Source of the DNA: an uncultured Geobacter sp. | GTDB taxonomy: Bacteria > Desulfobacterota > Desulfuromonadia > Geobacterales > DSM-12255 | Direction: 5' to 3' | NCBI GenBank assembly: GCA_937860145.1 | Contig: CALMBF010000200.1 | Location: forward strand, 1 to 64,000 | DNA length: 64,000 bases | In this document: piece by piece, positions 6,664 to 26,337 of the stretch | How positions within the stretch are numbered: the stretch's first letter is position 1 | Layout of the letters: every line of letters begins with the position of its first letter | The notes under the pieces: model-generated | What the model saw: the letters and a program-made list of their open reading frames with translations, nothing else | What the model was told of the DNA's origin: nothing | Databases searched by the model: none | Program-made: the position numbers and the translations under genes

Positions 6664-9030
6664 TCAGGGCTGACGACGGTGTTCCCGGCCAAGAAGGAGA
6701 AACGCCAGGGAATAGGCACCGGCCCCGAGGAGCAGCACCCCCCGGAACCCTGCGGTCATGGCGACCATGACCGCAAGGAGGGGGGCGAGGACCGACAGGG
6801 TGCCGTTGACTGCCCATGCCCAGGGGATCAGCCTTGGCCGCACCCGCCCGAGGAGGCGGAGGCCGGCCGGAAAGGGGATCCCCATGAGGGTGCCGGGGAG
6901 AGCCGCCAGGACGCAGAGAAAGGCGCTCCGGAGCATGAGCGGCCAGGGTTGGGCCAGTTCGAGCAGCCACGGCAGGGAGATGGCGTCGAGCAGCACGAGG
7001 AGGGGGAGGACCTGCAGTGTTGCCGGCCGCTCCATTGACGGGAACCGCTGGCCCAGGAGACTCCCGCACCCGGAGCTGACCAGGAGCGACGCAAGGACCG
7101 CCGCCATTGCCACGGGCGGCTGTTCGAGCAGGAGGATGGACTTCTGGATCAGCGCCACCTCCACGAACATGTAGGCAAGGCCGAGCAGTGCGAAATACGC
7201 CAGCATGCGGGGACCGTGGCCGTTGCCACGATCCCCGCTCTTTCCGCCCAGCAGCGGCAGGCAGACCAGCAGGATACCGATCGTCGCCACCTGCAGAAAG
7301 ATGGCCGCCAGGAGGTACCCCTCCTCCAGGAAATACTGCCACTTGTCCCCCATGGCACGATAAATCTCCCGAAGCTTGTCGAGCCTCAGGTGAAGGGAGA
7401 AGAAGGGGGCCTCGTCCCGTACCGGCCTGACGTCAAAGAGGTAGTCCGAGAAGAATCGTCCGCGCTCCGTGGGGGAGAGAATGGCCTGGAAGGCCCTGAA
7501 GTAATCCGTGTCCCTCGTGCGGACGTACCGGTTACTCTCCCCTTCGGATGCGCCGGGGAGCCAGGCCAGGTCGAAACGCCGGTCCCGGCTGAAACTCCTG
7601 ACAGACGCGATCTCGTCGGGAGTCAGGGGGGTCCGCTTGGCAACGATGGTGACGGTCCCCATGCTGCGGATTGCCGCCAGGTTCCGTGACGCCTCTTTCT
7701 CCCCCATCTCTTCCAGGGCAGTCGCCATGGTGGCGAGAATCCTCAGCTCGGTCCGCGGCGGCGGGAGGATGAAGAGATTCACGGCAAGGACCCCGGTGTC
7801 CGTCAGGTGGCCAAGATATTCACGGAGCGCCTCCACGGTGAAGCGGTAATCCTCGCCGATGCCGAAGGCCCCTGATGGCAGCGCCCCCTGGAGGGTAATG
7901 TCGATCAGGTCGAAACGCCGTCCCCCCCCTGCCAGCCACGACCTTCCCAGCCCGGTCCGGCTCTCCCCCCCATAAATGTTGCCACTGAAACGGGAGAACT
8001 CGTCCCTGATGACCTCCAGGAGGGCAGGGGTGCTCTCCACGGCCGACACCGCCTGTGCCCCGTGTCTCCGTGCCATCAGGACCGGCAGCCCCCCCATCGG
8101 GTCGAGGGCCAGGACGTCCCTCCTGTTTCCCATGGCATAGGGGAGAGCCGCCGGCAGGTTGTCGAGGAACGCGAGTGCCGCCGTATCCAGCGCCGAGGTC
8201 ACGGCATTCACCTCTCCCCCGTCGACACTGATGCCGATCTGCTCGGGAAGTCTCTCCAGGTAGCGGAGGGAGAGCCCCGGCGCATAGCGGACCGCCGGGC
8301 TGCGGAAGGTGTCGATCCGGGCGAAGGGGGTGTTCCGGGTGTCGATCTGCTGCGCGCCGGGGTAGCGCAGAGCGGTTTCCAGCCCCTTGTAGGGTGAGAT
8401 GCGCGGTTGGATGACGACGGGGCGGAGCACGAGGAGGGAGAGCAGGGGGAGGGCCAGAAGGCAGGCCAGCCCGCGCAGACGCCATCCCCCGGAAGATCCG
8501 GCTGCTGCGGTCACGACGAGGGCGAGAAACAGGACCGCCTGTTCGGGGGGGAGAATCCCCAGGAGGGGGAGGACCCCCAGTGAGCCGAGGCCTGCGCCGA
8601 CCAGGTCGGCGCCGTAGATGAGCCCGGCCTGTTCGCTCGACAGGCTGAATGCGGTGGTGATGACCAGCCCGGTGCAGAAGAAGGGGAGGGCGAGGAACAG
8701 ATAGATGGGGATTATGTGGAGAAGTTCCAGCGGTTCCCATGTGAGGCGGACCGGATCGAACGGGACCAGGTTGGCCAGGAAAAAGCCGCCGGGGAGGGTG
8801 GCGGCCAGCGCCAGGGTGTACCATCCCATGAGGTCGTGCCGCCTGAGGCCGGGAAAGAGTGCCAGGAGGGAGCCGCTTGCGGCACAGCCGAGCATGGCGA
8901 TGCTGACCACCATGAAGGCAAAGTGATACCAGAGGGTGATGGAGAAGGCGCGGGTCAGGAGTACCTCGAAGGCGAGGGTTGCCAGGGAGGTGAGGAAGAT
9001 GAGCAGAAGGATACCGGGCTCTCGTTTCAT
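6664..9030 (-). CDS. large membrane protein with a spermidine-synthase-like core
   Basis: A 788-residue protein with about a dozen hydrophobic segments in two blocks (roughly 5-210 and 575-785) around a soluble centre. The centre resembles the aminopropyltransferase/methyltransferase Rossmann fold (VLALDPMGGLPVL..., then SAVEST..., and later FDLIDITLQG). These spermine/spermidine-synthase-like integral membrane proteins are common in deltaproteobacteria and have no proven function. In the core, the usual GGGDG nucleotide-binding glycine run appears as DPMGGLP, so classical spermidine synthesis is doubtful. It converges with pcm (nine bases between stops) and diverges from a phosphatase gene. 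Confidence 0.75.
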   Translation of the reverse strand: MKREPGILLLIFLTSLATLAFEVLLTRAFSITLWYHFAFMVVSIAMLGCAASGSLLALFPGLRRHDLMGWYTLALAATLPGGFFLANLVPFDPVRLTWEPLELLHIIPIYLFLALPFFCTGLVITTAFSLSSEQAGLIYGADLVGAGLGSLGVLPLLGILPPEQAVLFLALVVTAAAGSSGGWRLRGLACLLALPLLSLLVLRPVVIQPRISPYKGLETALRYPGAQQIDTRNTPFARIDTFRSPAVRYAPGLSLRYLERLPEQIGISVDGGEVNAVTSALDTAALAFLDNLPAALPYAMGNRRDVLALDPMGGLPVLMARRHGAQAVSAVESTPALLEVIRDEFSRFSGNIYGGESRTGLGRSWLAGGGRRFDLIDITLQGALPSGAFGIGEDYRFTVEALREYLGHLTDTGVLAVNLFILPPPRTELRILATMATALEEMGEKEASRNLAAIRSMGTVTIVAKRTPLTPDEIASVRSFSRDRRFDLAWLPGASEGESNRYVRTRDTDYFRAFQAILSPTERGRFFSDYLFDVRPVRDEAPFFSLHLRLDKLREIYRAMGDKWQYFLEEGYLLAAIFLQVATIGILLVCLPLLGGKSGDRGNGHGPRMLAYFALLGLAYMFVEVALIQKSILLLEQPPVAMAAVLASLLVSSGCGSLLGQRFPSMERPATLQVLPLLVLLDAISLPWLLELAQPWPLMLRSAFLCVLAALPGTLMGIPFPAGLRLLGRVRPRLIPWAWAVNGTLSVLAPLLAVMVAMTAGFRGVLLLGAGAYSLAFLLLGREHRRQP

Positions 9031-11091: not shown

Positions 11092-11970
11092 TCACCGGCA
11101 TGCCGGGTCGATCCCCTCCCACGAACCACCGAGCTGCTCGCCCCTTCCGCGGCACCCCCCCGTGCAGGATCCGGCATCGACGCAGCCGACGCACGCCGCC
11201 GGGAGACGCAGCAGTTTCTTCCGCAGCTCCTTTTTCGCCTCCCCCCTGGCGATGTCGCGAAGGGTGCCGGAGGCGAGGTCCCCCAGAGGGACCGGCATGG
11301 TCGGGCAGGGGTAGACGACACCCTTGGGGTCGATGGCGAGCATGGTGTTGGCCGCCTGGCAGCGCCCTTCGGGGAAGGGTGTATGGGGGAAAATCCCCCG
11401 CCAGAGGAAGGGGTCGTGGACGGTGACCCGCATGTCGGGATCCCGGGGAATGGGCGCCAGTTCAGCCGTCAGGGCCTCCAGCTCCCTACGGGAGAGGTAG
11501 AACGCCTCCTCGCCGGCGTAGAGCCGCTGCATGGGGAGGACGAGGCGGCGGCAGCCGCTGTCCGCTGCGAAGCGGAACAGGTCGGGGATCCGGCGCCAGG
11601 TGTCACCGGTGACCGGGAAGGAGATGCCGTCGACCCCCGGAGGCAGGGAGCGGTGAGGGGGGAACCGGTCCGGACCGGTGACCTGGATGAGGAGCTCTTT
11701 TGGCGGCGCGGCGGCGAGACGTTGCCCCACCTCCTCAGACAGCGCTTCCGGCGATAGGGTCAGGGTGACCGCCAGCCGCGCGGTGCGGCACTGCTCAAGG
11801 ATCGAAAAGCAGGCCTCCGGCACGGTGCTCCCGGTGGCGGTCAGGTCGAGGCTGAGAATCTTCAGGTCGATGATCTCGGCACAGATCTTACCGTGGTCCG
11901 GCGGTGCGGACGGGAGAGGGGTGAGGTCCCAGTAGAGCCTGATCGGCGTGGTCAGCTCGGGGAGGGTCAT
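11092..11970 (-). CDS. SPASM-domain protein without radical SAM cluster (GeoRSP SPASM type)
   Basis: This 292-residue protein ends in a SPASM-type cysteine set: Cys260, 263, 269, 273 and 291, with a further Cys in GRC and VYPC upstream. The spacing (CxxC-x5-CxxxC-x17-C) is identical to that of the neighbouring radical SAM protein. The N-terminal CxxxCxxC that would bind the SAM cluster is missing; the corresponding stretch reads LYWDLTPLPSAPP. Geobacter species carry such a pair together with a PqqD-like protein, named GeoRSP, with unknown product. The start at 11970 overlaps the radical SAM stop by four bases. It may be a structural partner or substrate-recognition subunit, which is inference. 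Confidence 0.85.
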   Translation of the reverse strand: MTLPELTTPIRLYWDLTPLPSAPPDHGKICAEIIDLKILSLDLTATGSTVPEACFSILEQCRTARLAVTLTLSPEALSEEVGQRLAAAPPKELLIQVTGPDRFPPHRSLPPGVDGISFPVTGDTWRRIPDLFRFAADSGCRRLVLPMQRLYAGEEAFYLSRRELEALTAELAPIPRDPDMRVTVHDPFLWRGIFPHTPFPEGRCQAANTMLAIDPKGVVYPCPTMPVPLGDLASGTLRDIARGEAKKELRKKLLRLPAACVGCVDAGSCTGGCRGRGEQLGGSWEGIDPACR

Positions 11971-12965
11971 GGCACCCAGCAGTGGGGGTCGGGGTTGTTG
12001 AAGTCGCCGGTCATGGCCAGGGCCCGGGCGCTGCAGCCGCCGAGGCATTCGGCGTAGTCGCTGCAGGAGGCACACTTCCCCTTGGGGGTCTTGTGGCGCA
12101 ACTGGTCCAGGACCTGGGATTCGTGCCAGACCTTTTTCAGGTCGTCCCTGACGATGTTGCCGATGACCGCCGGGATGAAGCCGCAGGGGGTTATGTCCCC
12201 GTTGGACTTGATGTTCAGGGAGAGCTTGCCGCAGACGCTCCCCTTGACCATGGCGGTCTCGTCCCGCATCCCCAGGGAGGCGATGATCGGGTCGTCCAGG
12301 GAGATGTCCAGGTCGGTGCACTCCTGCTTCCACGTCATTGCGTCCCGGTAGAAATCCTTCCACTGGGCGGGGGAGAGGTCCAGCTCGTCCTTGTTGGCCA
12401 TCCCCAGGCCCGAGCATTTGAAGTTGTGGAAATTCAGCTGGGAGGCACCGTGTTCCCTGGCCATCTTTACCAGGTCAGGGATGGTCGTGTGGTTGAAGGT
12501 GCAGATGACTGTGGAGATGGAGGTCTTGATGCCGGCCCCCTTCAGGTGGTCAAGGGCGGCCAGTGCCCGGACATGGCTCCCCGGCATGCCGCGGAACCTG
12601 TCGTGGACATCGGCGACGTGGCTGTCGATGCTGATGCCGATCTTGGCGAAGCCCGCTTCCTTCAGCCTGCCGGCCATGGCCCCGTCGATGAGGTAGCCGT
12701 TGCTGTTCATGGAGACGCGGAAACCGGCATCCGCGGCGTGACGGGCGATCTCCAGGATGTCGGAACGGAGCAGGGGTTCCCCGCCGCCGAAGTTGACCGC
12801 CATGACGCCGGCCCTGGCTGCCCTGGTCAGGCACTCCTTCAGGGTCGGCCCGTCCAGTTCGTCGCCGGTGTCGACCCGGCTGTAGCAGTGGCGGCAGCTG
12901 AAGTTGCAGCTGTTGTTGAGCGCCCAGTTGATGGTCAGGGGGGCTTTCAGGATGTACTCAGACAT
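11967..12965 (-). CDS. radical SAM/SPASM peptide-maturase-like protein (GeoRSP type)
   Basis: A 332-residue radical SAM enzyme. The SAM-binding cluster cysteines are 20, 24 and 27 (CNFSCRHC), and the GGGEPLL motif follows near residue 80. The C-terminal SPASM domain has Cys298, 301, 307, 311 and 329, which would bind auxiliary Fe-S clusters. SPASM enzymes of this architecture modify ribosomal peptides or protein side chains, as in PqqE, AnSME and sactionine synthases. The gene overlaps the PqqD-like gene by eight bases, and the pair fits a RiPP-recognition-element plus maturase unit. No precursor peptide gene was found beside it. Confidence 0.9.
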   Translation of the reverse strand: MSEYILKAPLTINWALNNSCNFSCRHCYSRVDTGDELDGPTLKECLTRAARAGVMAVNFGGGEPLLRSDILEIARHAADAGFRVSMNSNGYLIDGAMAGRLKEAGFAKIGISIDSHVADVHDRFRGMPGSHVRALAALDHLKGAGIKTSISTVICTFNHTTIPDLVKMAREHGASQLNFHNFKCSGLGMANKDELDLSPAQWKDFYRDAMTWKQECTDLDISLDDPIIASLGMRDETAMVKGSVCGKLSLNIKSNGDITPCGFIPAVIGNIVRDDLKKVWHESQVLDQLRHKTPKGKCASCSDYAECLGGCSARALAMTGDFNNPDPHCWVP

Positions 12966-13269
12966 AGGAGATATACCTTTTTTCGGCAAGTTCTTGCAGG
13001 AAATTTGCCACGTCATGGCGCAGAACGTCCGCTTCCACGTCGAATTCCTCCAGGAGCGCGGTGACCAGCTCTTCCTCGGTCAGACCGTCGCATCGTTTCC
13101 AGATCTCCGTGCCGAGCAGGTTGAGGGTCACCATGGTACCGTCGGCAAAGAGGATGGCGGTGCCGATCTCCCCTGCTTCTCCCCCCTGCTCGAGGAGGGC
13201 GGCGGCCTCTGCCGCGGCGTCGTCCTCTTCACGCCAGAGGATGTCGGGGTTTCTGACGATCCTCTTCAT
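12958..13269 (-). CDS. PqqD-family peptide chaperone (RiPP recognition element)
   Basis: A 103-residue protein with a PqqD-like winged-helix pattern: GTMVTLNLLGTEIWKRCDG (44-62), then the acidic helix TEEELVTALLEEFDVEADVLRHDVANFL. PqqD proteins bind the leader of a precursor peptide and hand it to the radical SAM enzyme. Its stop overlaps the radical SAM start, and it begins one base after the cupin stop, so the four genes form one translationally coupled unit. The N-terminal 40 residues are an extension relative to minimal PqqD and could hold another role. Confidence 0.82.
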   Translation of the reverse strand: MKRIVRNPDILWREEDDAAAEAAALLEQGGEAGEIGTAILFADGTMVTLNLLGTEIWKRCDGLTEEELVTALLEEFDVEADVLRHDVANFLQELAEKRYISYV

Positions 13270-13270
13270 C

Positions 13271-13591
13271 TCAGTCTCCGGCCACGTTCAGGGAGGCGAT
13301 GACCAGGTCGGAGGAGGCGCCGTTCCTGATGCCGTGGTCCTCGAAGGCCGGGACGATGACGATCTGGCCGACCGTGATGGTCTGGGTTGTTCCTCCGGTG
13401 GTGAACTGCCCCTCACCCTCGACGACCATCCAGATGTGGTTGCCATGGTGGGTGTGGGTGTGGACTTCCTGGCCGGGCTTCATGCAGAGCAGGCTGATGC
13501 GGGCATGGTCATCGGACCAGATCGTTTCCATGGAACGCTTGTCGTCGTTGAACTTTTTCAGCTGGGCGAGGTCGAGGATCGTTGTTTTCAT
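13271..13591 (-). CDS. small cupin protein
   Basis: A 106-residue single-domain cupin. Motif 1 is PGQEVHTHTHHGNHIWMVVEGEG (histidines in HTHTHHGNH, glutamate near EGEG) and motif 2 is QIVIVPAFEDHGIRN. The metal ligands expected for a mononuclear metal site are present. The ATG at 13591 follows AGGAG by nine bases. It is the first gene of the PqqD-radical SAM block, one base ahead of pqqD. Its role may be to act on or protect the product, but nothing in the sequence shows this. Confidence 0.8.
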   Translation of the reverse strand: MKTTILDLAQLKKFNDDKRSMETIWSDDHARISLLCMKPGQEVHTHTHHGNHIWMVVEGEGQFTTGGTTQTITVGQIVIVPAFEDHGIRNGASSDLVIASLNVAGD

Positions 13592-13658: not shown

Positions 13659-15560
13659 TTATGCCTTGTGGGTCAGCTTGAGAAGCTTGCCGAGCAGTTC
13701 CGACGCCCGGTAGAAGAGGGGCGCGGCGACTGCCACGGGTATCTCCTCCTTCTGTGCCGCCTGGCCGTAGAAGTTGACGCCGAAACCGGACGACAGGCGG
13801 TTGATCCCCGCCAGGTCGCGGTCACCGGTCGATTCGCCGCCTGATACCACGAGCAGCCCTCCCCCGGTCCGGTTGAACGCCGTGATCGCTTTCAGTTCCT
13901 CCTCCCGGAGGGTCACCCCCGGCGGGAAGAAGAGCCAGACCTGGCTCTGCTTCTCCAGCAGGGCGGGGGAGAGTGCCGGCATGGTACTCCTGTTGGCCAG
14001 GACAAGCTTCCGGTCCGCACTGCCGAGGGCCGACAGCGGGGCTTTGTCCAGAAGCCGGTTGTCTCCCGTGGAGAGGTCGTAGACCAGGATGCTCCCCTTG
14101 GTCGTCGCGTTACTGTTCTGTTCGAGCCAGTTGGCGATATTCTCCACGTAGGTGCGGTTGTTCAGCCTGCCGGTGAGGTCGGTCCGGAAGCGTGCCATTC
14201 CTGCGTCGAACACGACCCCCCCCTCTGTACCCAGGTTGTTCGTGTAGGTGGCGACCAGCGGCTTGTCCGCGGGATCCAGCACGATGCGGACATTTTCCCC
14301 CTGTTTCCTGATGATGGCGGCGTTGCCGCCGGCGAGGGCACTGACCCCCTTGAGAATCGCGTTCCCCGTGTCGACCCCGGGGACGAAGAAGAGGATCTGC
14401 AGGCCGTAGGAGACCAACAGGGTGCCGGTGAAGCAGACGGCCATGTAGAGAACGAAAACCTTGCGCTTGAAGATGGTCCAGAACATGACGATGGTCGGGA
14501 TGGCGGTAACCGGTCCGCCGACCATGAAGGCCAGGGCTGCGCCGCTGTCGAGGGTGCCGCCGAGGGAGCTCTTGATGTGGTAGATGATGCTGGAGGCGCT
14601 GAGCTGGTGGAGGAACATGGGGACCGACCCGAGGGTCACCCAGACGATGTTGAGAGCATCCTTCCTGCCGAAGAAACGGTAGATCCAGTCGCCCGGCATG
14701 TACCGCTCAACCACTGCCCCGATGACCACACCGACGATGATGTATTTGCCGACCGGCCAGAGCATCTCCGCCGACTTGGCGAGAAAGATGATGAAGTTGT
14801 TGCTCGTCCGCAGGGCTACGCGGTTGCCGAACTTCTGCTTGCAACCGCACCGCAGCCGTTCGTCCGGGTAGTCCTCGTCGTGGAAATCCCCCCTGACGAT
14901 GGCCCCGTCGATGAAAACCTTTTTCGTCTCGAAACCGTACCGCTTGAGAAAATGGGTCACCAGGCCGGCGAAGATCCCCATGAACAGGGCCGCCAGGGTC
15001 CTGATGACGGTCCACTCCGGCCCCAGGTCGTTGAGGGTGAGGAGGTAGGTCGAGGGGCTCATGAGAGGGGAGGTCACCAGCAGGGACATGACCGGGGCCA
15101 GGGGGATGCCGGCAAAGAGGAGGCTGATGGCGGTGGTCAGGGTGCCGCAGGCACACAGGGGGGTGATGATGCCGATGAAGGAGGCGAGGAGGACGCTCAT
15201 GACGCCGTAACGGCGCAGGGTCGCCTGCAGTTTGACGGCGATCTTGTAGGTGCGGATGTACCCGCCCAGGAGCACGCCGACGATGAAATAGGGGAAGACG
15301 TCCCACAGTTCGGCCAGGATGCCGTGCTTGTCCGTCAGGAGGTCCCAGATTTCCATCCCGACCTGCACCGGGAGCGGGCCCGTCTTGACCCCTTCCCCGC
15401 CGTGGCTGGTCGGCCCGAAGGCCCAGACGTGCCAGACGATGAGGGAGAGGGAGAGGGCGATCATGCTGAACAGGGCGTAGTTGGCTTTTTTCTCGTGGTG
15501 GCCGTGTACCTGACAGGTCTCCGTGGAGGTGGTTTCTGCTGCTGTCGATGTCGTTGCCAC
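13659..15560 (-). CDS. ArsP/DUF318-type permease with a C-terminal soluble domain
   Basis: A 633-residue protein. Residues 30-395 form a polytopic permease of the ArsP_1 (DUF318) family, with the paired motif TPLCACGT (134-141) in the first half and GGPVTAIPT (348-356) in the second. A loop holds another CGC (238-240). Residues 395-633 are soluble and resemble a class I glutamine-amidotransferase-like or DUF4350-like fold (SGGESTGDRDLAGINRL), an unusual addition. Family members export organoarsenicals or transport unknown thiol-reactive substrates. The gene lies upstream of the cupin-PqqD-radical SAM block and 48 bases after the ResB-like gene. The N-terminus is rich in His and Cys (ETCQVHGHH), suggesting metal contact. 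Confidence 0.82.
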   Translation of the reverse strand: MATTSTAAETTSTETCQVHGHHEKKANYALFSMIALSLSLIVWHVWAFGPTSHGGEGVKTGPLPVQVGMEIWDLLTDKHGILAELWDVFPYFIVGVLLGGYIRTYKIAVKLQATLRRYGVMSVLLASFIGIITPLCACGTLTTAISLLFAGIPLAPVMSLLVTSPLMSPSTYLLTLNDLGPEWTVIRTLAALFMGIFAGLVTHFLKRYGFETKKVFIDGAIVRGDFHDEDYPDERLRCGCKQKFGNRVALRTSNNFIIFLAKSAEMLWPVGKYIIVGVVIGAVVERYMPGDWIYRFFGRKDALNIVWVTLGSVPMFLHQLSASSIIYHIKSSLGGTLDSGAALAFMVGGPVTAIPTIVMFWTIFKRKVFVLYMAVCFTGTLLVSYGLQILFFVPGVDTGNAILKGVSALAGGNAAIIRKQGENVRIVLDPADKPLVATYTNNLGTEGGVVFDAGMARFRTDLTGRLNNRTYVENIANWLEQNSNATTKGSILVYDLSTGDNRLLDKAPLSALGSADRKLVLANRSTMPALSPALLEKQSQVWLFFPPGVTLREEELKAITAFNRTGGGLLVVSGGESTGDRDLAGINRLSSGFGVNFYGQAAQKEEIPVAVAAPLFYRASELLGKLLKLTHKA

Positions 15561-15608: not shown

Positions 15609-16520
15609 CTATTTCCTGAAAAAACGGCGGTACCAGGCGGCCACCGCCCCCAGGGAGAGGATGGTCATGCCGGCGTACACCACGTATTTCCCCGGGTCGC
15701 GGACAATCTGCAGACCGGCATAGGGGCGTTTCTCGTCGTCGAGACTGATCTGGGTGTTGAAAAAATCCAGGCCGTTCCAGTTGAGCGGCCTGTTGACCTC
15801 GGTCGTTCCCGCCATCACTCTGCGGCCGTTTTCCAGCAGTTCCAGGTCGACCCAGAACCTCTTGATGACGGCATCCTTGAAGGCAACCAGTTTGAAGCTG
15901 AAGGGGAAGCCGCTCGGCAGCGTCGTTGCGCCGGACGTGTCGGCTGTCCCCAGGGGGGTGCTCCCCTGGGTGACGGTGAGGGAAACGGTCTCTTTCCAGG
16001 GATCGAACCGGTCCGCCCTGACCGTGTAGTTGTCAAGCCGGAAGCTTTCGCCGGTGCTCAGGGTCTTCAGGGAGTACTTTTCATCCCCCTTCATGACGCC
16101 GATCTGCAGGGGGGTCGGATGAAACTCCGTATGTATCCGTGCTACCCGGATCTCCTTGCCGAACGGTACATCCTTCTGAAGGTCCCACCGGTAGACGTTG
16201 CTCGATGATTCCCCCTCGTAAATGTTGATGGTGGCAACATAGCCGGTGGCGGTCAGAACGCCGCCGGCGAGGACGATCAGGACGCCGGCATGGACGACCA
16301 GGGTCGTTGCCGCCAGGTTGCGCCACCGCCTGATCGTGCATAACGTGAGGTGGAGGCCGAACAGGACCAGCAGCAGGGTGAAGAGGGGGTGGTGGTAGTA
16401 GCCCCGCTGCTCTTTCAGCAGGGTGCCGGGAAGGGCAGCTGCTGCCAGTAACCCGAAGAGGATCAGGGAGAGCTCGGTTGAGGACAACCACTGTATGGCT
16501 TTCTTTCCGGCCGGTTGCAT
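15609..16520 (-). CDS. ResB-like cytochrome c biogenesis family membrane protein
   Basis: This 303-residue protein resembles ResB/CcsB of system II cytochrome c assembly. It has three N-terminal membrane helices (about 10-30, 44-62, 70-92), a long extracytoplasmic beta-rich domain, and a final helix (about 276-294). The segment NRPLNWNGLDFFNTQISLDD is typical of ResB. It is shorter than full ResB and no ResA/CcsA partner lies nearby. Its place between a permease and a solute-binding-like gene suggests it serves this operon rather than general cytochrome assembly. Confidence 0.78.
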   Translation of the reverse strand: MQPAGKKAIQWLSSTELSLILFGLLAAAALPGTLLKEQRGYYHHPLFTLLLVLFGLHLTLCTIRRWRNLAATTLVVHAGVLIVLAGGVLTATGYVATINIYEGESSSNVYRWDLQKDVPFGKEIRVARIHTEFHPTPLQIGVMKGDEKYSLKTLSTGESFRLDNYTVRADRFDPWKETVSLTVTQGSTPLGTADTSGATTLPSGFPFSFKLVAFKDAVIKRFWVDLELLENGRRVMAGTTEVNRPLNWNGLDFFNTQISLDDEKRPYAGLQIVRDPGKYVVYAGMTILSLGAVAAWYRRFFRK

Positions 16521-16541: not shown

Positions 16542-17114
16542 CTAGATCAGCTTCTTGGCTTTGAGGAACTCCCTGGCGACTTTCTTGCCGCCGTCGTCAC
16601 CCTTTGCCTTCAGCATCCTGCCATAGGCGGAGTCGGCCGTGATGCCGGAGAGTTTCTGCAGCAGTTTCGGCAGGGCCGGCAGGCTGCTGAGGATTTCACT
16701 GGAGATGACCGGGGCGAGCAGCTGTTGGGAGTTCCCCTGCACCTGGCCGTACGGTTCAAGCCAGATCATGTTGAGACTCCTGCGGTATTCGCTTTTGGCC
16801 GTTTCCAGGGCGGCCTTGCCGGTGGTTCCTCGGGGCTTGCCGATCATGTCCATGGCACGGTCGGTGCTTTCGATGACCATGGCGACTTCCCCTTTTTTCA
16901 CCGAATTGTACAGTTCCTTCTGTCCCTTGAACTTTTCGATCTTGACGGTTGTGCCGGTGCGGGCCGTGATCAGCTGGGAGGTCAGTTCCGCCAGGAGCTG
17001 CTCGTTCGGCGTGTCGATGATGCCGATATGCAGGGTTTTCCCCACACAGGCGTTGAGCGGGGAAACACCGATGGCACAAACTACCAGAAGCAGTGCCCAG
17101 AAGAGTCGTGACAT
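16542..17114 (-). CDS. periplasmic substrate-binding-like protein (OpuAC-like)
   Basis: A 190-residue protein with a signal peptide (about 1-22, ending near NACVG) and a short type II periplasmic-binding-protein fold. HIGIIDTPNEQLLAEL and TDRAMDMIGKPRGT read like part of a glycine-betaine/osmoprotectant binding protein. Only about one lobe and a half is present, shorter than the usual 280 residues. The start at 17114 follows AGGAGG. No ABC permease or ATPase is near, so it is another orphan binding protein. The last helix region, KKVAREFLKAKKLI, is strongly basic. Confidence 0.65.
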   Translation of the reverse strand: MSRLFWALLLVVCAIGVSPLNACVGKTLHIGIIDTPNEQLLAELTSQLITARTGTTVKIEKFKGQKELYNSVKKGEVAMVIESTDRAMDMIGKPRGTTGKAALETAKSEYRRSLNMIWLEPYGQVQGNSQQLLAPVISSEILSSLPALPKLLQKLSGITADSAYGRMLKAKGDDGGKKVAREFLKAKKLI

Positions 17115-17151
17115 GCTGAAACCTCCTGTTGTTGGAGAGCGATTCAAATTC

Positions 17152-17850
17152 CTATTCTACCGGCATTTGCAAATCAATTGCAACCGGTAAATTCCCGGCT
17201 GAGAGCTCTACTTCCCTGATGGGGGCGGTTCCGCCGGGGGTGGGGAAGGTCGTGGCACTCCCCAGGTAATAGTGACCCGGCGGCAGCTTCAGGCGATACC
17301 TGCCCGACTCGTCCGTCCAGGCCGAGATGTACTCGGGGAGTGTGGCCGTCACCATGCCGGTGCGGGCGTAGACGTATGCTCCGGCTACCCGTTTCCCCTC
17401 CCTATCGGTCAGGGTCCCGTTCAGCTCCAGCAGCTCTTCCCGGCTCTTCTCCCTTTTCTGGGCGAGTTCCTGCATGTCGGCCACGACGAAGTCCTGGGCC
17501 AGCTCGGTGTCGCCTTCAGGGGCAATCCTGACCGGCTCGCCCGAGTGCCGGTCTCCCGGCATGAGCGGTCCGAACCGCTCCCCCCTTTTGACCCTGGCCA
17601 CCGCCCAGTAGGTGCCGGCCGGCAGAACCATGCGGTAGGCACCGGTGAGGTCGCTCCTGGGGGAGATGAAGTCTGCCGGACGGCGGGTGTTTTTCGACGC
17701 GTAGAGATAAACTTCCGCGTCGGCCACCGGTTTGCCGTCGAGGGAAGCGATGTTCCCCCGCAGGGTGAAGGTGTCGCCTGCCGTGGCATGGACAGGTCCG
17801 GACAGGGCGGCAAGGGCAGAGAGCAGGAGTGGGGCAAGGGCTTTTTTCAT
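17152..17850 (-). CDS. secreted protein with carboxypeptidase-regulatory-like folds
   Basis: A 232-residue protein with a signal peptide (1-22, ending in VHA). It contains two repeats of the carboxypeptidase regulatory-like / CnaB beta-sandwich: FTLRGNIASLDGKPVADAEVYLY (28-50) and LNGTLTDREGKRVAGAYVYAR (about 143-163), each followed by GxYRxxLPxGxY. These folds bind or present ligands outside the cell. The start codon overlaps the stop of the upstream beta-helix gene (ATGA), so the two are translated together. It lacks catalytic motifs. Confidence 0.8.
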   Translation of the reverse strand: MKKALAPLLLSALAALSGPVHATAGDTFTLRGNIASLDGKPVADAEVYLYASKNTRRPADFISPRSDLTGAYRMVLPAGTYWAVARVKRGERFGPLMPGDRHSGEPVRIAPEGDTELAQDFVVADMQELAQKREKSREELLELNGTLTDREGKRVAGAYVYARTGMVTATLPEYISAWTDESGRYRLKLPPGHYYLGSATTFPTPGGTAPIREVELSAGNLPVAIDLQMPVE

Positions 17851-20321
17851 GGGACACCAGCCTGTTCCAGGGGGAGGGGGGCCGAGCGGAACGGCTCCAG
17901 CAGCACCTTGCCGATACCCTCTTCCTGTCTCCCATCATAGACCGTTTTCAGCGGCTCATCGGTCCCCCACCAGTTATCGGCGGCCCTGATGTCTTCGGTA
18001 TTGAAATCGCCGGAGCGGATGTTGTAGTCGCTGTTGTTACTGAAGTTGTTGTTCCGCACCAGGAGCCCGCCCCCCCGCTCCCGGACGAACAGCCCCACCT
18101 CGTTGCCGGTGATGACATTCTCCTCGATGAGGGCATTCCCCATGTACGCCCTGATGCCGATGCCGTTGTTCCGGAAGACCGACTGCCTGACCGTGACCGG
18201 TCCGCTGCGGAAACGCATGCCGCCGCCGTTGTCCCGGGCCAGGATATGGTCCAGGAGGAGATTGGTGAAATGGCCGTGGACCCCCCAGGTGGCGTACTCG
18301 ATGATCGCATGGGTGATGGTGCTGTCCGTTGCCTGTTCCAGGATGATCTCGTCCCACGCCTCCGGTTTCCGCTCCCCCAGGGAGGTGAAGCGGATCGGCC
18401 TGGCAGCCGTCCCCTCCGCGTTCAGTTTCCCCCGCACGATCATCCCGCTGCCGGGGGTAAAGCGGAGGGTGGTCCCCGGAACGATCGTGAGGGATGACCC
18501 GGGGTTGACCAGTGGGTGGCCGTTGAGCACGACTTCCCCGGACAGGGAGAGCTCTCCGTCGAGGGACTGGAGGGGCCAGGCAAAGGGGAACGGTTTTCCT
18601 GCCGGCGTTTCCGTACGTACCGTCCCCCGGGCGGGGTCGCGGTGTTTGTCGAAAACGACGTCGGCAGGGGTGTCCCCCCCCCACCAGTTGTCACCCGCCT
18701 CGATATCCTCCGCTCCCTCGTGGTCGATGGCATAGAGGCCGTTGGTGCTGATGTTGTTGCCGCTGATGGCGCCGCTGAAGGAGACCACGCCGATACCCCG
18801 CTCACCGTTGGCGGTGATCAGGTTCCCCCGGACAATGGCGCGCGCATCCTGGAGATTCAGCCCGTTGGCACCGTTTCTGCCGAGATAGTTGCCGCTTACC
18901 TCAAGGTTGTCCACGTTGCGCATGGCCAGACCGTTTTCACCGCTGTTGGCGACGACGTTGCCGCTGATCCTGCCGTAGTAGGCGTCCGCGATCATCATGC
19001 CGAACCGGTTGGCGTAGAGCATGTTCCCGCTGGCCGTGGCGTTCCCCTCGCGGATGCGAACGGCTTCCCTCCTGCTGCCGGAGGCACGGTTGTCGGTGAA
19101 GGTCAGGTTGCAGCGGAAGAAATTGACCCCCTGGTGGTTCCCCAGGAGCCGGTTGCCGGTGAAGGCGATGTACGAGTCCCGCCCCTGGACGCCGCTCCTG
19201 TTGGTGATGAACAGCGAGTCCCGGATCTCCACCGTGGATTCCTGGAACTGGATGGCGCGGTAGTTGTTGCGGAAGGTGGAGCCGCTGACGAGCACGGTCG
19301 AGTAGTGGAAGTGGAGGCCCCGGTAGGCATCCTCGATGATGCAGTTTTCGACCAGGTTCTCCGCCCGGTCGCTGTTCATGATGTTGATGGAGTCCCAGTC
19401 ACCCGGCTGGCGGTTCTTCTCCCCCGAGCGGAAGAGTATGGGCGACTGCTTCGTCCCCTTGGCCAGGATGACCCCCTGGACCAGCAGGCCGTTCTCGCCG
19501 ATCCGGTCGTTGTTGCTGTCGGTACGGGTGAATTCGACCACGGTCCCGGGGGCGATGATCAGTCTGCTCCCCTCGGGGATGCGCAGGTTCCCCTCGACAC
19601 GGATGCGACCGCTCCAGAGGGTATCGCCCACAAGCGCCTCGTTCTTGTAGCTCCGGGCGACCGGGGCGGCAGTCTCGGGCGGAGGAGGGGGCGTCGATTC
19701 GGCACCTTTCACCAGGGTCTCCCGCCACAGGTCCTTTTTCCTGTTGGTCTTGATCACGGTCTCGGCCATCGCAGGGTCGTTGCTGTCGATGGTCACCATG
19801 CCGTAATCGTTGCCCGTGATGCTGGTCCTGCTCAGGGATGCCCTGGTCGTGCCGCCGATGAGGGTCAGGGCGTAACGGTTGCCGCTCAGGGTCGAGCCGT
19901 CCAGGCGCAGGACGGCATCGAGGGCATAGATGGCGGATTCGGCGCCGCTGATGATGCAGTTGTCGATCATCGCCTCGCCGCCATCAAGGAGCACGCCGGC
20001 CCACTCCCCACCCGTCTTGCCGTCCTGGGAGAGAAGTCTTACCGGGTTTTCGTGGGTCCCTTCGATTTTGAGCCGGCCGCGGACCGAGATCTCCGTCAGG
20101 GGGGAGATGAACTCGGGGTCGGTCTTGGTGCTCTCCGCCGCAGCTACCTTCACGATGGTGCCGGGGCGGAGCGTCAGGGTGACCCCGGTCGGCACCAGCA
20201 CGTCTTCGCTCAGGGTCACCTCGTCCTGCCAGACGGTGTCGGCGGTGAGCACCGCTGCCCCTGCCGGCGCAGTGAGGAGGAGTGAGACGAGTATGAGGAG
20301 AAAGGGGAGAAGTCCGTGCAT
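17847..20321 (-). CDS. large secreted right-handed beta-helix protein (NosD-like)
   Basis: An 824-residue exported protein; the signal peptide is about 1-22. It consists of three parallel beta-helix blocks (roughly 25-200, 230-575 and 590-800), each opened by a near-identical entry such as VPTGVTLTLRPGTIVKV or IPEGSRLIIAPGTVVEF. Many turns read GNxxxxN, as in NosD and pectate-lyase-like folds. The motif DNWWG occurs near the end of the second and third blocks. NosD helps copper-site assembly in nitrous oxide reductase, but no nos genes are here. It is the first gene of the long minus-strand run, coupled to the next secreted protein. Confidence 0.82.
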   Translation of the reverse strand: MHGLLPFLLILVSLLLTAPAGAAVLTADTVWQDEVTLSEDVLVPTGVTLTLRPGTIVKVAAAESTKTDPEFISPLTEISVRGRLKIEGTHENPVRLLSQDGKTGGEWAGVLLDGGEAMIDNCIISGAESAIYALDAVLRLDGSTLSGNRYALTLIGGTTRASLSRTSITGNDYGMVTIDSNDPAMAETVIKTNRKKDLWRETLVKGAESTPPPPPETAAPVARSYKNEALVGDTLWSGRIRVEGNLRIPEGSRLIIAPGTVVEFTRTDSNNDRIGENGLLVQGVILAKGTKQSPILFRSGEKNRQPGDWDSINIMNSDRAENLVENCIIEDAYRGLHFHYSTVLVSGSTFRNNYRAIQFQESTVEIRDSLFITNRSGVQGRDSYIAFTGNRLLGNHQGVNFFRCNLTFTDNRASGSRREAVRIREGNATASGNMLYANRFGMMIADAYYGRISGNVVANSGENGLAMRNVDNLEVSGNYLGRNGANGLNLQDARAIVRGNLITANGERGIGVVSFSGAISGNNISTNGLYAIDHEGAEDIEAGDNWWGGDTPADVVFDKHRDPARGTVRTETPAGKPFPFAWPLQSLDGELSLSGEVVLNGHPLVNPGSSLTIVPGTTLRFTPGSGMIVRGKLNAEGTAARPIRFTSLGERKPEAWDEIILEQATDSTITHAIIEYATWGVHGHFTNLLLDHILARDNGGGMRFRSGPVTVRQSVFRNNGIGIRAYMGNALIEENVITGNEVGLFVRERGGGLLVRNNNFSNNSDYNIRSGDFNTEDIRAADNWWGTDEPLKTVYDGRQEEGIGKVLLEPFRSAPLPLEQAGVP

Positions 20322-20664: not shown

Positions 20665-21816
20665 ATGACAGCGACGAATCGGGAACGGGTGATTATCGAC
20701 GACACCACCCTGCGTGACGGGGAGCAGACGGCCGGGGTGGTCTTCAGCCGGGGGGAGAAGCTGGCCATTGCCCGGATGCTGGACGCCATGGGGGTCCATG
20801 AGCTGGAGTGCGGCATTCCCGCCATGGGGGCGGAGGAGCAGGATTCCATCCGTTCCCTGGTCGAGCTGGGGCTGAATGCCCGCCTCATCACCTGGAACCG
20901 GGCGGTTCCGGCGGATATCCGGGCCAGCATCGACTGCGGCGTCGGGGCGGTTGATATCTCCCTTTCCGTCTCCGACATCATGATCGAGCGCAAGCTGGGG
21001 AAGAGCCGGGGGTGGGTGAAGGCGCAGCTGAAGGCGGCCCTTGCCTTTGCCAAGCGGCACGGCCTCTATGTCTCCGTGGGTGGGGAGGACTCCAGTCGGG
21101 CGGACACCGGGTTCCTCCTGGAGTTGATGGCCATCGCCCGGGACGAGGGGGGGGACCGGTTCCGTTTCTGCGATACCTTGGGGATCCTCGACCCCTTTAC
21201 CCTGTACGATAGGGTTGCCGCCCTCCGCCAGGGGGTGCCGGAGCTGGAGGTCGAGGTGCACACCCACAACGACCTGGGGATGGCCACGGCCAATGCCCTC
21301 GCGGGGGTGCGGGCCGGCGCCCGTTTCGTGAACACCACGGTCAACGGGCTGGGGGAGCGGGCGGGCAACGCTCCCCTGGAGGAGGTGGTCATGGGGCTGA
21401 AACTCGCCTGCGGCATCGATACCGGCATCGACACCCACCGCTTCCGGGAGATATCCCGCCTGGTCGGCAAGGCAGCCGGACGGCCGGTACCGGAGTGGAA
21501 GGCGGTGGTGGGGGAGAAGGTCTTTTCCCACGAGTCGGGGCTCCACGCCGACGGCGTGCTCAAGGACCCGGCCAATTACGAGGGGTTCGACCCGGCGGAG
21601 GTGGGGCTGACCCGTCACCTGGTGGTGGGGAAACATTCCGGCGCCCACGGGCTGATGGAGCGCTACCTGAGCATGGGGCTCCCGGTCAGCCGTCCCCGGG
21701 CGGAGCAACTGCTGGTCCAGGTGCGGGCCATTGCCCAGCGGAACAAGCGCCCCTTAAGCGACGGCGAACTGACCAGGCTCTACTTCCTCACGGATCGGCT
21801 CTCCACCGCGGCCTGA
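20665..21816 (+). CDS. nifV: homocitrate synthase
   Basis: A 383-residue enzyme that condenses acetyl-CoA with 2-oxoglutarate to make homocitrate, the organic ligand of the FeMo cofactor. It belongs to the LeuA/HCS family: DTTLRDGEQTAGV (12-24), VHTHNDLGMATANALAG, NTTVNGLGERAGNAPLEE and the HESGLHADG segment. NifV is favoured over isopropylmalate synthase because of length, the AGV after EQT and the nif setting. It has its own sigma-54 promoter and lies 288 bases upstream of nifH. The short spacing from promoter to gene includes a hairpin. Confidence 0.92.
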   Translation: MTATNRERVIIDDTTLRDGEQTAGVVFSRGEKLAIARMLDAMGVHELECGIPAMGAEEQDSIRSLVELGLNARLITWNRAVPADIRASIDCGVGAVDISLSVSDIMIERKLGKSRGWVKAQLKAALAFAKRHGLYVSVGGEDSSRADTGFLLELMAIARDEGGDRFRFCDTLGILDPFTLYDRVAALRQGVPELEVEVHTHNDLGMATANALAGVRAGARFVNTTVNGLGERAGNAPLEEVVMGLKLACGIDTGIDTHRFREISRLVGKAAGRPVPEWKAVVGEKVFSHESGLHADGVLKDPANYEGFDPAEVGLTRHLVVGKHSGAHGLMERYLSMGLPVSRPRAEQLLVQVRAIAQRNKRPLSDGELTRLYFLTDRLSTAA

Positions 21817-21900
21817 CCGGGAGATGTGCTGAACAATAAAGCGGCTGCTGCTTCCCTTGAGGGCAGCGTGAGAGCGGTCGGGAGGTTTAAAGTTACGTGA

Positions 21901-22971
<1,071 letters not shown>

Positions 22972-22972
22972 T

Positions 22973-23091
22973 GACGAACGCTTTTGCGCCATCTCGGCGC
23001 CGTCCTGCGGGGCGTCCTTGTGCGGCGTAGCGCTGCTACGCCTCCGCGGCGCTCCTCGGTCGACACCGACCTGGCATCAAAATCGTTCGCC
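22973..23091. repeat. palindromic repeat, family A, copy 1 (nifH-nifD gap)
   Basis: About 119 bases that form an imperfect palindrome. The outer arms (GACGAACGCTTTTG at 22973 and its inverted partner ending 23091) and the centre GGCGTAGCGCTGCTACGCC (23024-23042) are symmetric. The same core recurs in the five other copies listed here. It starts two bases after the nifH stop. Confidence 0.8.
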
Positions 23092-23116
23092 AGTTGGTTT
23101 TAAAAACGACCTGACG

Positions 23117-23233
23117 GGTTCGCAAAAAGCTCCAGGCGCAAGGCGCACGAGGACCGGGGGGCGAGGCGTAGCAGCGCTACGTTGAGCCTCACGGCCCGGA
23201 GGGCAACGCCGCGGATGGACTTTTGGCGGAGCC
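23117..23233. repeat. palindromic repeat, family A, copy 2, inverted (nifH-nifD gap)
   Basis: About 117 bases with end arms at 23117-23133 and 23217-23233 and the core GTAGCAGCGCTAC (23169-23181), which is the reverse complement of the copy 1 core. The arms differ from copy 1, so it is a subtype. Copies 1 and 2 face each other, like a paired REP element, and copy 2 ends 17 bases before nifD. Confidence 0.7.
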
Positions 23234-23250
23234 GCAAAACGGAGACAGAT

Positions 23251-24690
23251 ATGTCAATAACTACTGTAGAAGGTATTACCAAGGAATCGACCCAGGCCGC
23301 CATCGACGAGGTCCTGGATATGTACCCCGAGAAGGGGAAAAAGAAGCGGGCACCCCACCTGGCCCCCAACGACCAGGCGTCGGGCAAGGCCTGCGTCAAG
23401 TCCAACAAGAAGACCGTCCCCGGCGTCATGTCTGCCCGGGGGTGCGCCTACGCCGGCGCCAAGGGGGTCGTCTGGGGCCCGATCCGGGACATGGTCCACG
23501 TCTCCCACGGCCCGGTCGGCTGTGGCTGGTACTCCTGGGGCACCCGGCGCAACCTGATGACCGGCCAGCTGGGGGTCGACCAGTTCGGCATGCAGTTCAC
23601 CTCCGACTTCCAGGAGAAGGACATCGTCTACGGCGGCGACAAGAAGCTGAAGACCCTCCTCTCCGAGGCCAAGGAGCTCTTCCCCCTGGCCAAGGGGATC
23701 TCGGTCCTCTCCGAGTGCCCGGTGGGGCTCATCGGCGACGACATCAACGCCGTAGCCAAGGCCACCGCCAAGGAGCTGGACATCCCGATCATCCCCTGCA
23801 ACTGCGAGGGGTTCCGCGGGGTCTCCCAGTCCCTGGGCCACCACATCAGTAACGACACCATCCGTGACTACATCATCGAGACCCGTGAGTTCAGCGAGCC
23901 GATCGGCCCCTACGACATCGCCCTCATCGGCGAGTACAACATCGGCGGCGACGCTTGGTCGACGAAACCCCTCCTGGAGGAGTGCGGCTTCAACGTCAAG
24001 GCGGTCTGGACCGGCGACGGCGAGATGGAGAAGATCGCCGCAACCCACCAGGTAAGGCTGAACGTCATCCACTGCTACCGCTCCATGAACTACATGTGCA
24101 AGGTCATGGAAGAGAAGTACGGTATCCCCTGGATCGAGCTCAACTTCTTCGGCCCGACGAAAATAAAGGAGAGCCTGCGGAAACTGGCCGAGCTGTTCGA
24201 CGACAGCATCAAGGAGAAGGTGGAGGCGGTCATCGCCAAGTACGATCCGGTCTGCCAGGCGATCATCGACGAAGTCAAGCCCCGCCTCGACGGGAAGAAG
24301 GTCATGATCTACGTCGGGGGGCTCCGTCCCCGTCACACCATCGGCGCCTACGAGGACCTGGGGATGGTCTGCGTCGGTTCCGGCTACGAGTTCGCCCACT
24401 CCGACGACTACGACCGGACGACACCGGAGATGCCCGACGCCACGGTGGTATTTGATGATGCGTCCGAGATCGAGCTTGAGCACTTCGCCCATACCATGAA
24501 GCCCGACCTGGTCGCCTCCGGCATCAAGGAGAAGTACATGTTCCAGAAGATGGGGCTGCCGTTCCGCCAGATGCATAGCTGGGACTACTCGGGGCCGTAT
24601 CACGGGTACAAGGGGTTCCCGATCTTCGCCAGGGATATCGACATGGCGATCAATAGCCCGACCTGGAACCTGGTGAAGTCACCCTTTTAG
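23251..24690 (+). CDS. nifD: nitrogenase molybdenum-iron protein alpha chain
   Basis: A 479-residue alpha subunit of the MoFe protein, which holds the FeMo cofactor and half of the P-cluster. P-cluster cysteines are Cys65 (SARGCAYAG), Cys91 ([12 protein letters not shown]) and Cys156 ([11 protein letters not shown]). FeMo-co ligands are Cys275 ([11 protein letters not shown]) and His442 ([12 protein letters not shown]). These identify the Mo form rather than VnfD or AnfD. The ATG at 23251 has a GGAG site; an upstream in-frame start at 23182 falls inside the repeat and is unlikely. Confidence 0.97.
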
Positions 24691-24692
24691 AC

Positions 24693-24809
24693 GGCTCCGG
24701 CTTTTGGGCCAGCTCGGCGTTTCCTTCGTCATCGCTTGTGCGGCGTAGCGCTGCTACGCCTCCGCGCTCTTCCTCGGAAGCCGCCGATCTGACCTCAAAA
24801 TCCGAGGCC
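24693..24809. repeat. palindromic repeat, family A, copy 3 (nifD-nifK gap)
   Basis: About 117 bases with inverted arms (GGCTCCGGCTTTTG at 24693 and its partner ending 24809) and the core GGCGTAGCGCTGCTACGCC near the middle. It begins two bases after the nifD stop and fills most of the 177-base gap to nifK. Confidence 0.8.
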
Positions 24810-24867
24810 GGTAGGTAATAAAACAGATTGTGGACAGATGAGTCCCAACTGACAAAGGAGAACTATC

Positions 24868-26337
24868 ATGGCTAACAACTTAGGCCTTGCAGTCAAACCG
24901 GTCACCGAAACTCCCGCCGCAGAGATCGAGCGGGTGGCGGCCTGGATCAATACGGAAGAGTACAAGGATCTCAACTTCAAGCGGGAGGCGCTGGTGGTCA
25001 TGCCCCCCCATGCCTGCCAGCCCCTTGGGGCCGAGCTGGTGGCCCACGCCTTCGAGGGGTCGCTCCCCTTTGTCCACGGCTCCCAGGGGTGCGCCTCCTA
25101 CTACCGCTCCACCCTGAACCGCCACTTCCGCGAGCCGGCGCCGGCGGTCTCCGATGCCATGACCGAGGACGGCGCGGTGTTCGGCGGCCAGAACAACCTC
25201 CACGAGGGGCTGGAGAACGCCATCGCCCTCTACAAGCCGAAGATGATCCCGGTCTTCACCTCCTGCATGCCGGAGATCATCGGCGACGATTTGACCGCCT
25301 TCATCAAGAATGCCCGGAACAAGGGGATCGTGCCGGAAGGGATGCCGGTCCCCTACGCCAACACCCCGAGCTTCAACGGCTCCCACGTGCACGGCTACGA
25401 CGCCATGCTGCTATCCATCCTCCAGACCCTCACGGAGGGGAAAAAGATGGAGGGGCGCTGCACCGGCAAGATCAACCTGATCCCCGGCTTCGACGCCAAC
25501 ACCGGCAACTTCCGTGAGTACAAGCGGATCTTTGCCGAGTTCGGCGCACCCCTGACCATCCTGGGAGACATCTCCGACGTGTTCGATTCCCCCTGCGACG
25601 GCACCTACCGGACCTACCCCGGCGGCACCCCCCTGGCGGACGCCGGTGACTCCGTCAACGGCAAGGCGACCCTCAGCATCGGCCCCTTCTCGGCCGCCAA
25701 GACCTTTGCCTGGCTCAAGGATAATTACGCCGGCCGGCACGTGGCCATCCCCATGCCCCTGGGGATCGCCAAGACCGACGAGTTCATCAAGAAGATCGCC
25801 GAGCTCACGGGCAAGCCGGTCCCCGACTCCATCAAGGAGGAGCGGGGGAGGGCGGTGGACGCCATGACCGATTCCCACCAGTACATCCACGGGAAGAAAT
25901 TCGCCCTCTACGGCGATCCCGACCAGCTCATCGGCTACGTCTCCTTCCTCCTGGAGATGGGGGCGGTCCCCTACCATATCCTCTGCAGCAAGGGGAGCAA
26001 GAAGGTGGAGAAGGAGATCCAGGCGCTCCTCGACTCCTCCCCCTACGGCGCCAAGGGGAAGATCTACATGGGCAAGGACCTGTGGCACCTGCGCAGCCTC
26101 CTCATGACCGATCCGGTGGATGCCATCATCGGCGACACCCATGGCAAGTTCATCGCCAGGGATGCCAATATCCCCCTGTTCCGCTACGGCTTCCCGGTCT
26201 TCGACCGGGTCAACAGGCACCGCTACCCGATCATCGGCTACCAGGGGGTGATCAACATGGTGACGGAGATCTGCAACAAGTTCATCGAGATCGTGGATGA
26301 GACGTGCGACGACCGCCACTTCGAGATGATGCGGTAG
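24868..26337 (+). CDS. nifK: nitrogenase molybdenum-iron protein beta chain
   Basis: A 489-residue beta subunit of the MoFe protein. It provides Cys50 (MPPHACQPLG), Cys75 (GSQGCASYYR) and Cys133 (FTSCMPEIIGDD) to the P-cluster. The C-terminal part carries RYGFPVFDRVNRHRYPIIGYQG, typical of NifK. An AAAGGAG site precedes the ATG. Downstream genes nifE, nifN and nifB are not in this window; a repeat and a strong terminator follow, so the transcript probably ends here. Confidence 0.97.
   Translation: MANNLGLAVKPVTETPAAEIERVAAWINTEEYKDLNFKREALVVMPPHACQPLGAELVAHAFEGSLPFVHGSQGCASYYRSTLNRHFREPAPAVSDAMTEDGAVFGGQNNLHEGLENAIALYKPKMIPVFTSCMPEIIGDDLTAFIKNARNKGIVPEGMPVPYANTPSFNGSHVHGYDAMLLSILQTLTEGKKMEGRCTGKINLIPGFDANTGNFREYKRIFAEFGAPLTILGDISDVFDSPCDGTYRTYPGGTPLADAGDSVNGKATLSIGPFSAAKTFAWLKDNYAGRHVAIPMPLGIAKTDEFIKKIAELTGKPVPDSIKEERGRAVDAMTDSHQYIHGKKFALYGDPDQLIGYVSFLLEMGAVPYHILCSKGSKKVEKEIQALLDSSPYGAKGKIYMGKDLWHLRSLLMTDPVDAIIGDTHGKFIARDANIPLFRYGFPVFDRVNRHRYPIIGYQGVINMVTEICNKFIEIVDETCDDRHFEMMR

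Follow-up and report, generated by a model that had tools for sequence, protein, structure and literature searches.

A short peptide family ending in VHPC is very probably the substrate of the GeoRSP radical SAM cassette and travels with it across bacterial phyla

We have found a family of short peptides ending in VHPC that is very probably the substrate of the GeoRSP enzymes, judging from the motif of the peptide, the fold of its putative recognition protein and the co-occurrence of peptide and enzyme. GeoRSP reaches beyond the Geobacterales and travels with the VHPC peptide across several bacterial phyla. Taken as a whole, and with a metal or surface-protein role of the product included, we consider it likely that the cassette performs a RiPP-type or peptide-derived-cofactor maturation of a VHPC precursor. 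The GeoRSP family itself is already known and was named years ago without a substrate. The candidate peptide, the pseudo-radical-SAM partner, the larger operon and the position of a cupin outside the core are new as far as the searched literature and databases show. The open literature held nothing relevant on GeoRSP, its TIGR numbers, VHPC or the NikR of G. uraniireducens. Neither Pfam nor NCBIfam contains a family matching the peptide or lists a substrate family for GeoRSP, whereas a cognate short peptide was found here.

The cassette lies in a 64,000-nucleotide stretch of DNA from an uncultured Geobacter sp. (contig CALMBF010000200.1, positions 1 to 64,000), which is called the window below. 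A sequence-only reading of this DNA had described four tightly packed genes, and they lie where it placed them, all on the minus strand. One base separates the genes for a cupin (13271..13591, 106 aa; Pfam Cupin_2, 2.7e-13) and a PqqD-family peptide chaperone or RRE (12958..13269, 103 aa). The latter overlaps the gene for the radical SAM/SPASM maturase (11967..12965, 332 aa; Pfam Radical_SAM, 1.3e-23, and SPASM) by 8 nt, and this in turn overlaps the gene for the SPASM-only protein (11092..11970, 292 aa; Pfam SPASM) by 4 nt (ATGA). However, the boundary had been drawn too short. Since the gaps do not exceed 67 nt and several genes overlap, we infer that these four genes are the tail of a nine-gene operon on the minus strand (20321-11092), with the GeoRSP genes at its end.

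The operon starts with a gene for a secreted NosD-like right-handed beta-helix protein (17847..20321, 824 aa; Pfam Beta_helix, 7.8e-32, and NosD, 2.6e-22), which is kept upstream of the cassette in relatives and scores 32 bits against a cut-off of 300 for the NosD copper-maturation model TIGR04247. It is overlapped by 4 nt by the gene for a secreted CarboxypepD_reg-like protein (17152..17850, 232 aa; Pfam CarboxypepD_reg, 1.9e-13, with a sub-threshold match to DUF4198). This is followed by a small OpuAC-like periplasmic substrate-binding protein (16542..17147, 201 aa; Pfam OpuAC, 3e-9), and the positions of both are conserved. Next come a ResB-like membrane protein (15609..16520, 303 aa; Pfam ResB, 8e-17) and an ArsP_1-type permease with an extra C-terminal domain (13659..15560, 633 aa; Pfam ArsP_1, 8e-37), the latter at 106.5 bits against a cut-off of 300 for the SO_0444-type Cu/Zn efflux model NF033936. 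All of these genes are on the minus strand. A tRNA-dihydrouridine-synthase-like gene comes after the SPASM-only gene. Scans for promoters and terminators gave no more matches than chance, and no plasmid-borne copy of the region was found. Directly past the operon and in the opposite direction, ORFs judged from their sequence to be homocitrate-synthase-like and nifH/nifD/nifK-like occupy 20665-26337 on the plus strand. On its other side, the minus-strand ORF at 6664-9030 encodes a membrane protein of 788 aa that matched no Pfam family and had no significant NCBIfam hit.

All three core proteins, encoded side by side, exceed the curated NCBIfam cut-offs for GeoRSP: the PqqD-like protein reaches 143.3 bits for TIGR04302 (cut-off 100), the radical SAM/SPASM protein 601.2 bits for TIGR04303 (cut-off 400) and the SPASM-only protein 314.2 bits for TIGR04304 (cut-off 300). 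The assignment to GeoRSP made in the sequence-only reading was thus right. The window's genome has a single radical SAM copy above the TIGR04303 cut-off; 35 of 141 Geobacterales genomes likewise have one copy each, as do 27 of 395 genomes of a phylum sample. GeoRSP had been tied to Geobacter. Its presence there holds, among others in the Geobacterales relatives Geomobilimonas luticola, Geotalea toluenoxydans and Geobacter sp. AOG1, but it is not confined to this group. It was also found in Desulfuromonadales (Geothermobacter, Geoalkalibacter), in many Nitrospirota MAGs and in a few other MAG lineages. In the relatives, the radical SAM gene comes immediately after the PqqD gene with the SPASM gene alongside, and these three stay together in at least two phyla; the cupin is not kept everywhere. 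Genes for NosD-like, PhnD-like, TPR and YedE-type (TIGR04112, 404 bits) proteins recur near the cassette in Geobacterales, Desulfuromonadales and Nitrospirota. The ResB-like gene was found in all 35 GeoRSP-positive Geobacterales genomes, even where it is unlinked to the radical SAM gene, and in 2 of the 106 GeoRSP-negative ones. Compared with GeoRSP as catalogued, we therefore describe a larger co-conserved operon and a range reaching the Nitrospirota.

The cupin had been proposed to take part in the modification, and its distribution across loci rules out a core tailoring enzyme. It is present at 33 of 76 GeoRSP loci; all 33 have an ArsP-type permease, and no locus without this permease has the cupin. 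Because it is found only together with the ArsP-type permease, we conclude that the cupin is a partner of the permease and not of the maturase. The Desulfuromonadales loci are without it, and at eight Geobacterales loci a NicO-type permease takes the place of the ArsP type.

The recognition protein points to a peptide substrate. A winged-helix PqqD fold is confirmed by Pfam (PqqD, 4e-18), by profile comparison and by an AF2 model (pLDDT 95) whose best Foldseek matches are the complexes of the lasso RRE TbiB1 with its leader (5v1u/5v1v); TfuB1 and PqqD also match. Profile comparison of the sequence also places leader-bound TbiB1 nearest. The expectation that an RRE stands beside a radical SAM/SPASM maturase is therefore borne out. 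The leaders of actinobacterial lasso peptides have a conserved YxxPxL motif that is recognised by the RRE (PMC6784204, PMC10368454), which resembles the YxxP[KR][VI] of the VHPC peptide. This stretch fits an RRE-bound leader, as far as motif and predicted fold can tell, and a leader near the N terminus would leave the VHPC end as the core. Unlike lasso systems, GeoRSP would use a radical SAM enzyme rather than a cyclase for maturation. Its PqqD-like protein scores 30.3 and 26.2 bits on the two lasso PqqD-family chaperone models, with cut-offs of 80 and 70, respectively.

The enzymes have the features of a peptide-modifying pair. The radical SAM enzyme has a CxxxCxxC motif at 20/24/27 and SPASM cysteines at 245, 261, 298, 301, 307, 311 and 329, all invariant in 28 aligned sequences. 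Its nearest solved relatives are SkfB and PqqE, and by HMM scores alone its nearest other families are AhbD (199 bits), NirJ2 (191), NirJ (168) and MftC (164). These are enzymes that decarboxylate or cleave side chains. The MftC equivalog has a cut-off of 265 bits, and the PQQ equivalogs were likewise missed (PqqE, 123 against 381 bits; PqqD, 35.4 against 46 bits). The SPASM-only protein lacks CxxxCxxC and has seven invariant SPASM cysteines (204, 222, 260, 263, 269, 273 and 291). Its AF2 model (pLDDT 92) matches the barrel and SPASM fold of SuiB, PqqE, CteB and SkfB in Foldseek, and it is predicted to be a pseudo-radical-SAM barrel partner.

The peptide was first seen in an all-against-all comparison of neighbourhood ORFs, as a tiny conserved ORF ending in YIKPRVVGSSNVHPC that adjoins the radical SAM gene, and a six-frame search recovered it at many GeoRSP loci. 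The family has 17-22 residues and the form MKKx(0-2)YxxP[KR][VI]xGxxxVHPC-stop. The peptide gene lies directly between those for the radical SAM and SPASM proteins in Desulfuromonadales and other lineages; Geobacterales and Nitrospirota mostly have multiple, scattered copies. With Y-x-x-P-[KR]-[VI]-x5-VHPC-stop as the DNA search pattern, three exact matches were obtained in the genome to which the window belongs (C48:10-57, C62:16359-16406 and C134:11291-11338), one copy reading MKYVKPRVVGSGSVHPC. All three lie outside the window, and strict and relaxed scans alike found no peptide inside it. Nearly all copies are preceded by a Shine-Dalgarno-like (AGGAGG-like) site, with the start codon only a few residues ahead of the motif. 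Third codon positions are near-saturated, but the Gly codon, although left free by the pattern, hardly varies at its first two positions. Y, P and VHPC are fixed by the pattern, and conservation there comes partly from the selection of matches. One Nitrospirota MAG (G537, loci L350 and L351) has 14 copies set amid secreted-looking proteins of about 265-335 aa; an additional Cys (SVCVHPC) is present in many of these copies.

The peptide follows the enzyme closely. In Geobacterales, it was found in 33 of the 35 GeoRSP-positive genomes and in 5 of the 106 negative ones (p = 1.7e-24, kinship ignored). The phylum sample gave 23 of 27 against 3 of 368 (p = 4e-30, kinship ignored). Three of the four misses in that sample are a Phe-for-Tyr variant, and when this variant is allowed 26 of the 27 positives have the peptide. 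Of the three genomes with the peptide alone, two encode a divergent GeoRSP PqqD. We also considered 30 GeoRSP-positive genomes, mostly Nitrospirota, that were picked for having no peptide near the radical SAM gene; 27 of them have it elsewhere, in up to 14 copies, and a reversed pattern matched in none of the same 30. Among the five peptide-positive, GeoRSP-negative Geobacterales genomes, four are only 66-81% complete, and one of the five (G013) has the ResB-like gene. G103, which is 97% complete, has the peptide and neither a GeoRSP radical SAM nor a PqqD protein. Conversely, no recognisable peptide was found even with a loose pattern in two near-complete, enzyme-positive Geobacterales genomes (G046 and G090) or in G312. 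Two of the marks of a RiPP or peptide-derived cofactor system were found here, namely a PqqD-like winged-helix RRE and a genetically encoded, co-occurring candidate precursor, the latter outside the window. The sequence-only reading was right to name no product; a target can be proposed, however, given a peptide family that travels with the cassette.

During maturation, the PqqD-like RRE would hold the N-terminal YxxP[KR][VI] stretch of the precursor and present the VHPC segment at the C-terminal end to the radical SAM/SPASM maturase. Its SPASM-only partner would be catalytically dead with its auxiliary Fe-S site kept, and would probably help to bind the substrate or to transfer electrons. The most likely target of the radical SAM enzyme is the C-terminal Cys. 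This Cys could form a thioether to a nearby residue, or the C-terminal residue could undergo oxidative decarboxylation or cross-linking, as in the related MftC. Outside the cytoplasm, the co-conserved proteins of the NosD-like, ResB-like, substrate-binding and metal-permease types may then take over the product, which may serve giant secreted cytochromes or other large surface proteins, or bind a soft metal such as nickel. We offer the modification site, the type of bond, the export and the metal role as weak inferences.

The neighbours of the scattered peptide genes give hints of this later role. In 36 of 79 scattered contexts from Geobacterales and Nitrospirota, the peptide gene comes immediately 3' of an ORF that has 800 codons or more, compared with 1.4% of random positions. 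Eight or more haem motifs are present in 21 of these 36 large ORFs, and others are of FN3/propeller or Big/lipoyl type; shorter FG-GAP/ASPIC proteins were also found beside peptide genes. In the window's own genome, the C62 copy lies behind a protein of about 35 haem motifs and the C134 copy in front of another multihaem protein. Elsewhere, the peptide gene precedes unrelated genes or lies at a convergent end. Many of the multihaem giants upstream of peptide genes share a C-terminal WNxxTPW, and FN3 giants in this position have GDGTC[PQN] (loci with shared C-terminal motifs: L147, L153, L168, L171-L173, L176, L183, L300; L157, L163, L178, L347, L356). As for metals, NikR adjoins the peptide gene in 5 and CbiM in 5 of 153 contexts, in two phyla. 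NikR and/or CbiM-type Ni/Co uptake genes beside VHPC genes were seen in Nitrospirota and Geobacterales (L341, L346, L160, L161, L071, L179). These neighbours, together with NicO in the operon of some relatives, suggest a nickel role of the product. Nickel genes are less common beside the peptide than YedE-type selenium transporters and PhnD-like proteins, which could point to a role other than nickel. We tentatively propose, while regarding it as doubtful, that one shared radical SAM pair turns the VHPC peptides, many of them encoded beside different giant extracellular proteins, into moieties with a redox function or with affinity for a metal, perhaps nickel, and that these moieties serve the giants or are attached to them. 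On this proposal, the peptides may form a widespread RiPP-like class of up to 14 candidate copies in a single genome, and the giants may include multihaem cytochromes with a possible part in extracellular electron transfer.

The main rival to a metal role keeps the peptide as substrate and makes the product a redox cofactor, similar to PQQ or mycofactocin, of the giant extracellular proteins. We find this plausible and still rather less than probable: the short RRE-dependent precursor, the MftC-like enzyme and the link to giant extracellular proteins, multihaem and other, agree with it, but partners of several unrelated folds (FN3, Big/lipoyl, FG-GAP/ASPIC and multihaem) would be unusual for one cofactor-enzyme pair, and the metal permeases and NikR point to a metal. 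It is unlikely that the GeoRSP enzyme modifies a residue in a large protein such as a giant cytochrome, with the short ORF serving its neighbours only as a leader or as a regulatory peptide. The position of scattered peptide genes 3' of giant secreted proteins with shared C-terminal motifs would fit, but in many genomes the peptide is inside the maturase cassette, and the copies elsewhere that precede unrelated genes or lie at convergent gene ends do not suit this explanation. Moreover, the peptide tracks the enzyme across phyla rather than one class of giant proteins, and its YxxP motif fits RRE leaders. Less probable still is a tetrapyrrole or haem-related small molecule as the target, with the peptide as carrier or unrelated: the AhbD and NirJ2 scores, the almost perfect co-occurrence of the ResB-like gene of the operon and the multihaem proteins nearby speak for it, but the AhbD and NirJ scores are far under their cut-offs of 500 bits or more, and pathway membership was rejected on them. 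The peptide enzyme MftC comes close to these scores, a dedicated RRE and a SPASM partner of peptide-maturase fold imply a peptide substrate, and a peptide accompanies the enzyme.

For the preferred reading, maturation of a VHPC precursor, close known counterparts are mycofactocin (MftA/B/C) and PQQ (PqqA/D/E), in which a PqqD-fold RRE is likewise combined with a radical SAM/SPASM maturase and the precursors are very short, like the VHPC peptide. Unlike these systems, GeoRSP adds a putative pseudo-radical-SAM SPASM partner, and its candidate precursor, with VHPC at the end, is encoded in multiple scattered copies. With a conserved candidate of 17-22 residues matched to an RRE and radical SAM pair, the GeoRSP target is now directly testable by co-expression. 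A product that did serve giant multihaem or surface proteins would represent a missing maturation step in metal-reducing bacteria and an addition to the peptide-derived cofactors or metallophores.

Several further radical SAM genes were observed. A true MftC, the radical SAM maturase of mycofactocin, is also encoded in the window's genome (L002, G000:C64:18944-19903, minus strand; 351 bits, cut-off 265). In Geotalea toluenoxydans (L237, 9953-11794), the radical SAM and SPASM-only proteins form one 613-aa ORF in which part of the radical SAM C-terminus is unmatched, either a natural fusion or an assembly join. In Cellulomonas carbonis (L257, 10001-10921), a radical SAM protein has GeoRSP as its best family at 176 bits, under the cut-off of 400, and is possibly a distant actinobacterial branch of GeoRSP.
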